From positions 1 to 64,000 of the forward strand of contig WHTU01000011.1 in NCBI GenBank assembly GCA_009377575.1: a stretch of DNA of 64,000 nucleotides. Direction: 5' to 3'. Below are positions 22,335 through 26,306 of this stretch, in pieces (the first letter of the stretch is position 1; every line of letters starts with the position of its first letter). The position numbers and the translations under genes were made by a program. This DNA is from Nitrososphaeraceae archaeon. Lineage in GTDB: Archaea > Thermoproteota > Nitrososphaeria > Nitrososphaerales > Nitrososphaeraceae. The notes beneath the pieces were generated by a model. It did no database searches. It saw only the letters and a program-made list of their open reading frames with translations, and was not told the DNA's origin.

Positions 22335-22483
22335 GTTGTATATGTATTATGCTGTAGTGGCTTTGGCAGCGGTACATCTAGATTCTAAACTGTGTTTTGT
22401 CGTGGCAGGGCTACATTGGGTCGAAATCCATTGGTAACAGAATTTCTTTAATATGTATAGATGCGCTAATTTCCCAGGATATC

Positions 22484-22565
22484 TAGTAGAATAATTATCA
22501 GATTAAAGAGAGGGTCTGAATTTGCTTAACGTAGATAAACAAAATGCCCGCTCCATTTATCAGAA
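22484..22565 (+). promoter_or_regulatory. leader copy 1 of a duplicated upstream element
   Basis: Sequence directly before the 79-residue secreted protein matches the region before its paralog at 23100-23183, starting with TAGTAGAAT and TTATCAGATTAAAGAGAG, then GAATTTGCTTAA and TATCAGAAATGAAC at the start codon. Conservation over about 80 bp of non-coding DNA suggests a shared promoter plus 5' untranslated element. An overlapping ATG at 22544 is in another frame. Confidence 0.7.
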
Positions 22566-22805
22566 ATGAACATCAAATATGTAGCAATAGTAGCAGTTAT
22601 AGCAGCAACATTAGTAGCAACAACGGCAATAACCGCCGATAGTGCTTTCGCAACCAAATACAAGAGTAAGAACCAAGCGTTATCACAAGTAAATGACTGT
22701 GGCAACGGATTCTTGCCAGAGAATGTCGGATGCCAGAACAGTGCATCGCAAGTCCAAGGCGACGAGAACATCGTAGACTTAGCTACTGCACAAACATTCC
22801 CATGA
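22566..22805 (+). CDS. tiny secreted protein, paralog 1 of a twin pair
   Basis: A 79-residue precursor. Residues 1-30 are a signal peptide (NIKYVAIVAVIAATLVATTA, AFA cleavage site). The mature part of about 49 residues holds the motif shared with the gene 380 bp downstream: KNQALSQ, then a C-G-N-G unit, LPENVGCQNSASQVQGDEN. The two cysteines could form a disulfide. No known domain. It is probably a small surface or released peptide. Start chosen at ATG 22566 because alignment with paralog 2 begins there (MNxKY). Confidence 0.75.
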   Translation: MNIKYVAIVAVIAATLVATTAITADSAFATKYKSKNQALSQVNDCGNGFLPENVGCQNSASQVQGDENIVDLATAQTFP

Positions 22806-22870
22806 AGTAGTCACGAAGAACCATAATCCAGTTTATTCGATTCTTTACTTTTTTTATCGTCATTGTCGGA
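22806..22870 (+). terminator. T-rich stretch after secreted paralog 1
   Basis: The region just after the stop contains TTTACTTTTTTTATCG near 22843-22858. Archaeal intrinsic termination uses such T runs, so this is a likely stop for the peptide transcript. Confidence 0.45.
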
Positions 22871-23099
22871 GCAGTAGTGATAGTTCTTAATCTATTCTTA
22901 TACTCATCCAAACAAGTTGATATAACTCAATAACACAGTAGTAAAATATGACAAAATGAAGTTCTGGCACTAGGTCGGATCGTACTTCCTCCTCCAATAT
23001 CCACTCCTTTCATTCGTAATATCTCATTTGCGATCATTCTTTTGTAGTAGAAATGCAGTTAAGTTATGTAACATGTTATATATATCCCCTAACTATTTT

Positions 23100-23183
23100 T
23101 AATAGAATATTTATCAGATTAAAGAGAGCGCACGAATTTGCTTAATGTAAATAACCAAGATGATCGTCATAGGTATCAGAAAT
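23100..23183 (+). promoter_or_regulatory. leader copy 2 of a duplicated upstream element
   Basis: Second copy of the element at 22484-22565. It keeps TTATCAGATTAAAGAGAG and GAATTTGCTTAA, with substitutions concentrated in short blocks between them, as expected for functional sites under selection. Confidence 0.7.
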
Positions 23184-23429
23184 ATGAACACCAAGTATCT
23201 TGTAGTTGTAGCAGCAATGGCAGTAATGCTCATTGGAGCAACAGCTTTTGCAACAGACAGTGCTTTTGCTGAAGGAAAAAAGAAATATGAGAAAAATCAG
23301 GCACTTTCACAAGCAAACGCTTGTGGAAATGGAAAATTGCCGTTGAATGTGTTATGCTCAAATAGTGCATCTCAAATTCAAGGCGATGAAAACGCAGTCA
23401 GTACTGCATCATTCCAACAAGGCGGCTAA
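23184..23429 (+). CDS. tiny secreted protein, paralog 2 of a twin pair
   Basis: An 81-residue precursor from ATG 23184; an in-frame ATG at 23160 would add eight residues that lie in the conserved leader, so the later start is preferred. Signal peptide NTKYLVVVAAMAVMLIGATA with AFA site, then mature EGKKKYEKNQALSQANACGNG, LPLNVLCSNSASQIQGDEN and a Gln/Gly end. It keeps the two cysteines, the NQALSQ box and the SASQ-QGDEN box of paralog 1 while the rest diverges. Function unknown. Confidence 0.75.
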   Translation: MNTKYLVVVAAMAVMLIGATAFATDSAFAEGKKKYEKNQALSQANACGNGKLPLNVLCSNSASQIQGDENAVSTASFQQGG

Positions 23430-23791: not shown

Positions 23792-24253
23792 TCATAGCCC
23801 TACTTTTTTAGAGTTAGATCGAGACCATTTACGCATCCATTGCAAAAGATCAACAACTGATTCAACGAGCTCCTGTCCTTTGTTGGTAAGACGGTACTCT
23901 ACTCTAGGGGGTATCTCTTTATAGGCTCTCCTCTCAAGGATTTCATTCATTTCAAGTTGTTTTAGTCTTATGGCTAATGTCTTACTGCTGAATCCTTTCA
24001 GTGAATTTCTGAACTTTATGTAGCGTACAGGGTTTGTAGTACAGCAAAGAGGGATAAGAATTTCAAGTGTTCCTCTTTTTGTAATTAATTCCCTTAGTTT
24101 CTTGGTTTCATTCATAAGTAGTTCAGCATCGTACCCATCAAATCCACATGAATCTTGCTTCATGTTCTTTCCCTGTCTCTGCAGCTGATTCTGAATAACC
24201 GGTAATTCTCTTCTGTTAGCTACCGATTTTGCAGCGTTTGCTTTAGTTTCCAT
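23792..24253 (-). CDS. HxlR-family winged-helix regulator
   Basis: A 153-residue protein whose C-terminal two thirds form an HxlR/MarR-like winged helix: KRGTLEILIPLCC, IKFRNSLKGFSSKTLAIRLKQLEMNEILERRAY, PPRVEYRLTNKGQELVE. The N-terminal extension is basic and contains one Cys (DSCGFDGYD), and LCCTTNP gives two adjacent cysteines close to the DNA-binding helices. The gene is divergent from arsM with 65 bp between starts, so a role as arsenic-responsive repressor is a reasonable inference; cysteines could coordinate As(III). HxlR proteins more often sense electrophiles. Confidence 0.85.
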   Translation of the reverse strand: METKANAAKSVANRRELPVIQNQLQRQGKNMKQDSCGFDGYDAELLMNETKKLRELITKRGTLEILIPLCCTTNPVRYIKFRNSLKGFSSKTLAIRLKQLEMNEILERRAYKEIPPRVEYRLTNKGQELVESVVDLLQWMRKWSRSNSKKVGL

Positions 24254-24318
24254 TTTTACACTTACTTTACCTAGCTTCTCTTGATAACTTAAATAGTTTC
24301 TCTAGTAAACATATTAGT

Positions 24319-25146
24319 ATGACTGAATCGCTAAAAATAAAGGAAAAGGTAAAGGAAAGATATGGAAAAGTAGCTCTGTCAGGAGACTCATGTTGTGGTC
24401 CTTCGGTTAGTATTGAAAGTGGAGGAGGAGGATGTTGCTCAGGAAATAATAATGCAGTTCCACATTCTTCACAATCAGCTGCACAAGTCGCTGAATTAGT
24501 AGGATATGACTTGAATGACCTTAATTCGATACCAGCGGCGTCAATGCTTGGAGCAGGATGTGGAACTCCTACAAAGTTTGCTTTTATTAAGGAAGGCGAT
24601 ACGGTCGTTGATCTAGGTTCGGGTGCAGGTATTGATGTATTTCTGGCAGCTAACATAGCCAAAGGCTCGGGTAGAGTGATAGGTATAGATATGACGGATG
24701 AAATGTTGGAAAAAGCGAGAAAGAATGCAACCGATAATTATGGTTACACAAATGTTGAATTCAGAAAAGGGGATATAGAAGAAAGAATCCCTGTTGAAGA
24801 AAACAGTGTAGATGTTGTAATAAGCAACTGTGTAATCAATCTAACAACAGATAAGGGAAAGACATTTAGAGAAATATACAGAATTCTCAAGCCTAATGGA
24901 ATTGGCCGAATGGTTATCTCAGATCTTGTTACGGATAAGCAAATAGCAGAAGACGCATCATTGATAGATCCAGATAAGTGGTGCAGTTGCATTGATGGTG
25001 CGTTGACTAAGGAAAATTACATTGCTAGTATCAAAAATGGCGGATTTGATAATGTAGAGGTACTAGATGAAAAGCTCTATACGGAAGGAGATCAGGTTGA
25101 TAACAGAAAGATTACCAGTCTGGTTATCAAGGCCGTAAAACAATGA
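24319..25146 (+). CDS. arsM: arsenite S-adenosylmethionine methyltransferase
   Basis: A 275-residue methyltransferase that converts As(III) to methylated forms. The N-terminal SCCGPS and GGGGCCSGN clusters precede the SAM motif VVDLGSGAGIDVFLAA (about 95-110). Family cysteines are present in GAGCGTPT, SNCVINLT and KWCSCIDGAL, the three positions needed to bind As(III). MLEKARKNA and EFRKGDIE complete the fold. The next gene, arsC, starts 40 bp downstream, so an operon is likely. It is divergent from the HxlR regulator. Confidence 0.95.
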   Translation: MTESLKIKEKVKERYGKVALSGDSCCGPSVSIESGGGGCCSGNNNAVPHSSQSAAQVAELVGYDLNDLNSIPAASMLGAGCGTPTKFAFIKEGDTVVDLGSGAGIDVFLAANIAKGSGRVIGIDMTDEMLEKARKNATDNYGYTNVEFRKGDIEERIPVEENSVDVVISNCVINLTTDKGKTFREIYRILKPNGIGRMVISDLVTDKQIAEDASLIDPDKWCSCIDGALTKENYIASIKNGGFDNVEVLDEKLYTEGDQVDNRKITSLVIKAVKQ

Positions 25147-25186
25147 TGATGAAGGAACCGTCGGAAATCATAGGCTGTGAACAAGA

Positions 25187-25645
25187 ATGAAACTTTCATT
25201 TGGTAGCAAATCAAAAGTCAGGACAAAGAAAACTATACTCTTCGTCTGCGTGGAGAACGCTGGCAGAAGTCAAATGGCAGAAGGATTCTTTTGGAAATAT
25301 GCTCCTGAGGGGTATGGACCATTAAGTGCGGGGACTAAACCGACATCACAGATTAACCCCCTTGCAATACAGGTAATGAATGAGATTGGAATAGACATCT
25401 ACAAGCAAAGGTCTAAAGACCTCACGGAAGATATGATGAGAAATTCAGACAAGATCATCAATATGGGATGTATGGACAAGAATTTCTGTCCTACATTGTT
25501 TATCCCTAAGGTAATTGACTGGGGGATCGAAGACCCTAAAGACAAGCCAATCGAAAAAGTCAGAGAAATTAGAGATGAGATAGAGAGGAGAATCAAGGAA
25601 CTTGCAACAGACGTTTCTGTCGCTGAAGAAGATAATAGCAGATAA
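25187..25645 (+). CDS. arsC: arsenate reductase, low-molecular-weight phosphatase type
   Basis: A 152-residue protein reducing As(V) to As(III). The P-loop CX5R starts at Cys21 (CVENAGRS) after the strand KTILFV, and the general-acid Asp-Pro is in WGIEDPKD. Additional cysteines near MGCMDKNFC are in the position used by thioredoxin-coupled ArsC for the disulfide cascade. It lies 40 bp after arsM, and its end overlaps the aquaporin gene by 44 bp if the TTG start is right. The product As(III) would feed both ArsM and the channel. Confidence 0.92.
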   Translation: MKLSFGSKSKVRTKKTILFVCVENAGRSQMAEGFFWKYAPEGYGPLSAGTKPTSQINPLAIQVMNEIGIDIYKQRSKDLTEDMMRNSDKIINMGCMDKNFCPTLFIPKVIDWGIEDPKDKPIEKVREIRDEIERRIKELATDVSVAEEDNSR

Positions 25646-26306
25646 ACTTACGTTAACTCAAAAACAGTTCATTGCAGAAGTAATAGGTACGTTCATTGTA
25701 GTCGTTTTGGCTACAGGAGCGGTGGTAATAGATGCTAAATTCGGTGGAATATTGGGTATCCCATTTATCGCATTTCTTCCATTTGTGGGTGTAACAGTAT
25801 CGGTATACTTATTTGCTAAAATATCAATGGCCCACTTCAACCCTGCTGTGACGCTAGGGTTTTTGATTACTAAACATATCAGAGAGCTACAACTATTGTA
25901 TTATTTTTCAGCAGAAATACTGGGTGCATTGCTTGGAAGCTTATTTGTGATGTATATAATTGGAAGTGAGGCCGACCTAGGTGCAAACTCACCTAACTAT
26001 GCATTTCCATTGCCTGTAATATTTGGGATTGAGATACTGGCGTCTGCATTATTGATGGCTGTGATAGTAGTGGTTGTCTATATGAAAGGACTAAGGGGAT
26101 ATGGTGGGCTTGTCATTGGTGGAATAGTTGGACTTGACATATTCTTTCTTGCGTTTATATCTGGAGCTTCTATGAACCCTGCTCGTTCATTTGCTCCTGC
26201 TTTTGTTTCTGGAGTATTGACAAATCTGTGGTTGTACTGGACTGCCACATTTGTAGGGACGTCAGTTGTTGCCTTACTTGTAAGAAAGAAGTTTACGCGT
26301 AGCTAG
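25602..26306 (+). CDS. aquaporin/aquaglyceroporin (MIP), probable arsenite channel
   Basis: A 234-residue channel with six membrane helices and two NPA boxes, NPAV in HFNPAVTLGF and NPAR in SMNPARSFAPA. The listed start is TTG at 25602, inside arsC; no ATG is found before the first helix (LTLTQKQFIAEVIGTFIVVV), so overlap and translational coupling are likely. Downstream of arsM and arsC it probably lets As(OH)3 leave the cell by diffusion, as proposed for aquaporin-containing ars operons elsewhere. No ArsB or Acr3 pump is in the window. Confidence 0.9.
   Translation: MQQTFLSLKKIIADKLTLTQKQFIAEVIGTFIVVVLATGAVVIDAKFGGILGIPFIAFLPFVGVTVSVYLFAKISMAHFNPAVTLGFLITKHIRELQLLYYFSAEILGALLGSLFVMYIIGSEADLGANSPNYAFPLPVIFGIEILASALLMAVIVVVVYMKGLRGYGGLVIGGIVGLDIFFLAFISGASMNPARSFAPAFVSGVLTNLWLYWTATFVGTSVVALLVRKKFTRS

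Follow-up and report, generated by a model that had tools for sequence, protein, structure and literature searches.

A multicopy family of secreted N/Q-rich two-cysteine peptides with a conserved, putative core-promoter leader in Nitrososphaeraceae

Two small genes on the forward strand, separated by 378 bp, form a pair in the window, by which we mean the whole stretch of 64,000 nucleotides analysed (Table 1). The encoded proteins are 59% identical and have in common the motifs NQALSQ, CGNG-LP-NV-C and SASQ-QGDEN and exactly two cysteines each; in gene 2, a possible upstream in-frame ATG at 23160 would lengthen the product to 89 aa. The leaders that precede the genes are 81% identical over 64 nt, and the next best ungapped match to leader 1 in the window reaches only 53%. 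An earlier note on this DNA had described two similar small genes with similar leaders, and these values bear it out; its word "twins" understates a family that has dozens of members. The pair was also found at orthologous places in TH5895 (L122) and in G002/plot3_rep3_bin15 (L109, L124). Since both genes and both leaders lie there at the same place as in the window, the pair is old. Adjoining the pair, at 23792-26306, genes resembling those for an HxlR-type regulator, an arsenite methyltransferase, an ArsC-type phosphatase and an aquaporin were recognised by eye.

Table 1. Features of the paired locus (window positions) and loci of the comparison family in the sister genus
Feature	Position or loci	Strand	Basis
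Probable decayed relic of a zinc-ribbon-like gene	22375..22469	+	By eye: end ATG CGC TAA, clearer relic in ortholog L109; low confidence
Conserved leader 1 (putative promoter block)	22481..22544	+	77.7 bits against the family leader profile; 59/64 identical to L109 ortholog
Candidate TATA/BRE core of leader 1 (CAGATTAAAG)	22499..22508	+	Predicted with the tRNA-promoter profile
Box 2 of leader 1 (TTTGCTTAACGTAGATAA), predicted transcription-start region	22521..22538	+	Conserved across copies; start predicted via TATA spacing
Gene 1	22566..22805	+	Signal peptide and N/Q-rich two-Cys domain, 79 aa
Conserved leader 2 (putative promoter block)	23097..23160	+	70.1 bits; 60/64 identical to L109 and L123 orthologs
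Candidate TATA/BRE core of leader 2 (CAGATTAAAG)	23115..23124	+	Predicted with the tRNA-promoter profile
Box 2 of leader 2 (TTTGCTTAATGTAAATAA), predicted transcription-start region	23137..23154	+	Conserved across copies; start predicted
Gene 2	23184..23429	+	Signal peptide and N/Q-rich two-Cys domain, 81 aa
g2 A5 family loci	L101, L102, L103, L113, L114, L252-L263		Genomes G005, G016, G023, G028, G033, G061 and others

The proteins of the family follow one layout, in which a signal peptide, of Sec type by inspection, is followed by a short, mostly basic linker, an N/Q/G/S/A-rich domain of ~40 residues and a short variable tail; neither a lipobox nor a C-terminal membrane segment was seen. The domain has the consensus KxYxKSQAxSQANxCGNGxLPxNVxCQNxxSQIQGDxNAV.....Q, with Q10, C18, G19, C29, G38 and N41 (numbered on the mature gene-2 domain) invariant in 47 members and exactly two cysteines in 30/30 aligned members. 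N and Q together make up 24% of the residues, the mean GRAVY is -0.62 (range -1.04 to -0.13), and the linker, its ends cut by a simple rule, carries a mean charge of about +2. Across 73 copies, identity in the core was 0.79 at codon positions 1 and 2 versus 0.46 at position 3; the peptide core is under purifying selection. The domain also occurs in longer secreted proteins, where its partners are a BNR/propeller-like part (594 aa; Pfam hits weak, below the cut-off), collagen repeats (E 1.9e-17) or an Ig-like part that comes before it (weak hits). This recurrence, together with the signal peptide, supports the earlier view of a released or surface peptide family as far as secretion is concerned. 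We found no relative in Pfam (scanned with the window proteins and the 47 members), in NCBIfam or, by profile search, in PDB, and AlphaFold2 gave a pLDDT of 52, no secondary structure and no confident fold, which may reflect the shallow alignment as much as disorder. Because no fold was obtained, the structure backs no mechanism.

With a profile of 30 members, we found 46 matches to the secreted domain in the window's genome. Four congeneric genomes had 31, 19, 44 and 22 matches and a second genus gave 17 and 6; the rest of the family and order yielded only 0-4 weak matches. Some matches are broken or are fragments with stops, and the figure of 46 therefore counts matches, not intact genes. 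At the DNA level, searching this genome in full (3.89 Mb in 380 contigs) gave 33 matches, the window pair included, and a protein search of the same genome with a single query gave 47. In a scan of named genomes, the matches came only from Nitrososphaerales/Nitrososphaeraceae MAGs, mostly TH5895, TH5896, TH526 and plot3_rep3_bin15, and among 398 genomes sampled evenly across the phylum the domain profile matched the window's genome only. The TH genomes come from a study on gene duplication in Nitrososphaerales (PMC7603488). Several copies stand in tandem groups together with a YWFP subtype (C199, C266, C330 and others). A literature search did not find a description of this peptide family. The secreted N/Q-rich two-cysteine family is undescribed, lineage-restricted and multicopy. 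In an archaeal genome of 3.9 Mb, 46 matches are a considerable share for a single such family, and this one is limited to one or two genera of abundant soil nitrifiers.

About 70 copies from several species are preceded by the leader, a gapless block of 64 nt, and the window's genome holds about 26 clear copies of it. Mostly 18-24 nt separate this block from the first in-frame ATG. A leader profile built from 20 copies of the window's genome scored 45-95 bits before most canonical copies in five species, still scored above zero, though lower, in divergent copies and in those of the second genus (L097/L166, L168, L174), and fell below -9 bits at unrelated window positions. After de-duplication the scan comprised 68 distinct leaders, and the statistics were computed on 73 distinct leader-plus-core combinations. 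One group, the MKSY subtype (L044, L047, L151, L155), has a mature domain very close to that of gene 2 but a different leader, common to its own members. Homologs without this leader, which the earlier note had named as a point against its reading, do therefore exist, and the leader would be the family's usual promoter, not an obligatory one. Leaders without an intact family peptide were observed at L235 (C349), L236 (C29) and L240 (C288), one of them before an Asp-rich ORF and the others before decayed sequence.

We compared the conservation of the leaders with that of their surroundings between the window and the L109 ortholog. The two leaders were identical at 119/128 positions (93%), versus 119/162 third codon positions (73%), 309/408 positions of the intergenic and 3' flanking sequence (76%) and 34/44 positions in the rest of the 5' UTR (Fisher P = 1.2e-5 against third positions, 7e-6 against flanks and 0.009 against the remaining UTR, these values being approximate because the sites of a locus have a common history). 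In 153 paralog pairs from the window's genome, mean identity of the leader was 0.756, compared with 0.512 for third positions and 0.289 for the 64 nt immediately before it, with the leader exceeding third positions in 95% of the pairs, and across the 73 copies the leader averaged 0.655 versus 0.459 at third positions; since many copies are orthologs or close duplicates and hence non-independent, these pairwise means are descriptive and the tests rest on the one ortholog comparison. The leader is under selection, in orthologs and in paralogs. That the leaders are alike merely because the copies are recent or were homogenised by recombination is extremely improbable. Duplication clearly spread the copies, often with upstream DNA in tow, and leader and coding similarity correlate (rho 0.46-0.56); however, leader identity stands far above that of both neighbours, with upstream DNA at chance and third positions near saturation, conversion tracts would need to end at the leader block, and the same contrast recurs at orthologous loci. 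Recent duplication as the cause was rejected on the evidence of the orthologs and the upstream contrast, and drift, on which the earlier note had allowed that its case might founder, is excluded by both sets of comparisons.

As a guide to core-promoter elements, a 14-nt TATA-like profile was learned from 32 tRNA upstream regions of the window's genome. Averaged over 20 leaders, its two best positions lay in the 5' half, 35 and 22 nt before the TTTG anchor; the scores are modest (3.3 and 2.8 bits) and the two registers compete. Words of the 5' half such as AGATTTAAG were also found before tRNA genes. Box 2 as the TATA element is less likely, with 0.4 bits versus 3.3 bits for the 5' half under the same profile. 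If the spacing is that of the tRNA promoters, transcription would start in box 2, or more broadly in the 3' half of the leader, leaving a UTR of roughly 35 nt. At L242 (G000:C322:12629), the 5' half alone lies 20-odd nt before the ATG of a 148-aa M23-peptidase-like ORF, an apparent case of promoter capture; such a detached 5' half is expected if that half is the core promoter. Like an archaeal core promoter (BRE/TATA plus start region), the leader has a fixed spacing and a candidate TATA-like block in its 5' half, and its words are in the same family as this genome's tRNA promoters (AAGATTTAAGTAAG), whereas it differs from a generic archaeal promoter in the far greater extent of its conservation, over 64 nt, and in being shared by one gene family.

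The earlier note had combined a shared promoter with a 5' RNA element. We consider it very unlikely that the leader acts as RNA, whether as a thermosensor, a riboswitch or a translational control element. It does sit just before the start codon, and the inverted repeat of box 2 (ATTTGC-TTAAT-GCAAAT) shows one pair changed on both sides, but this repeat could equally be a DNA operator. RNAalifold returned zero consensus pairs from a 21-row alignment, single-sequence fold energies were no better than those of shuffles (z +0.59 and +0.81), two hand-drawn helices did not rise above controls in pair counts or covariation, Rfam had no family near its gathering threshold, and conservation falls in the remaining UTR. 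An upstream ORF within the leader was also rejected, as some copies lack the box 2 ATG (window copy 1 reads AACG) and the spacing to the start codon does not change in steps of three. Sequence comparison gives good support to reading the leader as a core promoter that acts at the DNA level rather than as an RNA element. The earlier interpretation thus keeps its secreted family and its shared promoter, the latter backed by conservation beyond drift and by the best TATA-like matches lying inside the leader, whereas its 5' RNA element is not supported. Promoters are little studied in this archaeal group, and a conserved one offers a ready co-regulation test and a handle for transcription-start mapping.

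Upstream of 22 of the 68 leaders, tblastn detected a small zinc-ribbon-like gene, or what is left of one, at a similar distance, and the copies of this gene range from intact to stop-riddled. Its product has about 65 aa with the pattern CxC...ELRCxxCxG..WW...EECxAMR (for example at L053, L052, L076, L078, L131 and L127). The protein had no Pfam match above the cut-off, and its AlphaFold2 model (pLDDT 69.5) found no significant PDB match. The possible relic before leader 1 (Table 1) is not among the 22 detected by tblastn. Evidently, copying carried the zinc-ribbon-like gene along, and it decays at many copies where leader and peptide persist. This gene bears on the idea that the peptides are secreted antimicrobials or signals whose many copies form a repertoire, since a small intracellular protein encoded just upstream is imaginable as an immunity or control partner, and the peptides are small, secreted, cysteine-containing and multicopy with variable tails. 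We nevertheless judge this idea quite unlikely, given that the zinc-ribbon-like gene is missing or decayed at most copies, that the mature core is highly conserved rather than diversified, that the domain is reused in long structural-looking proteins, and that we noticed no genes for export or processing next to the pair in the window.

Taken jointly, we read the family, with about an even chance of being right, as lineage-specific, co-expressed small extracellular N/Q-rich two-cysteine modules that mostly share one core promoter and are probably subunits of a cell coat or matrix. Each copy would be its own transcription unit; in most of them, a BRE/TATA-like block (TATCAGATTTA) and a start-region block (TTTGCTTAATGCAGATAAAC) lie a constant distance apart. 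As most copies have kept the same putative core promoter, dozens of unlinked copies could be activated at the same time, and the result would be a high dosage and a mixture of isoforms; this co-expression is suggested by the shared leader. Outside the cell, a probable disulfide between the two cysteines would close CGNGxLPxNVxC into a loop flanked by N/Q-rich arms, and the modules would probably assemble into, or bind, the extracellular matrix or the coat of the cell. We propose such a role, or one in attachment, mainly because the domain is reused modularly in longer secreted proteins, and the argument draws on this modularity and on conservation. If the family forms a coat or matrix, it bears on attachment, aggregation and soil tolerance of these archaea.

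The arrangement of the longer proteins could also be read in another way, with the domain serving as a tag for sorting or attachment by which larger cargo is docked to the S-layer or to polysaccharide, the small copies being free docking units. In most long proteins the domain comes right after the signal peptide, ahead of the cargo (L181, L073, L182, L184), whereas in L067/L183/L169 it follows an Ig-like domain and a linker, and the basic linkers could bind acidic polymers. However, no partner was identified and the majority of copies are without cargo; we regard a docking tag as unlikely.

Among known systems, the chaplins of Streptomyces (ChpA-H) are likewise a small multigene family with a signal peptide and a single ~40-residue domain, and with longer variants. 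The chaplin domain has about 40 residues with two conserved cysteines in most members, and short chaplins are reported to have GRAVY values of +0.16 to +0.60 (PMC3079736). Two conserved cysteines in a short secreted protein were found here as well (30/30 aligned members). In contrast, chaplins are hydrophobic and the window family is hydrophilic, and chaplins number 8 copies as against about 46 matches in the archaeal family. The chaplin model in Pfam matched neither the window proteins nor the 47 members. Given the differences in model match and hydrophobicity, the family would at most work like chaplins and is not to be counted among them. A likeness to curlin (CsgA/CsgB), which we take to lie in the N/Q/S/G-rich secreted sequence and the Q-x-Q-G-x-x-N rhythm, is an unscored resemblance; the curlin repeat model in Pfam matched none of the same proteins, and the window family differs in having one unit per protein and two cysteines.

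Another multicopy family, made up of secreted proteins with Q/N-rich repeats, occurs in the sister genus g2 (the A5 family; Table 1), with at least 57 matches in one genome, lying inside proteins of up to 679 aa and having its own conserved leader (AATTCTAAAActGCtAGAATATTAGAGTATTGCACCTAGTTAGCAA) before the ATG. It resembles the window family in being secreted and multicopy, in its Q..N.C..G....C.N..Q.Q rhythm and in possessing a conserved leader, but differs in the leader sequence and in its tandem repeats; homology between the two families was not established (hhalign probability 2%). A broader and more speculative picture, which we hold to be possible but on balance rather doubtful, is that soil ammonia-oxidising archaea are coated by a self-assembling, possibly amyloid-like layer of dozens of N/Q-rich two-cysteine isoforms, all governed by one dedicated promoter type, and that a parallel system, with a different peptide and a different promoter, has evolved in g2. 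As a separate observation, short secreted proteins at L047 (C322) and L074 (C166) combine a related signal peptide with a silk-like Ala/Gly/Ser tail (GGSAAAAAAASGGS).
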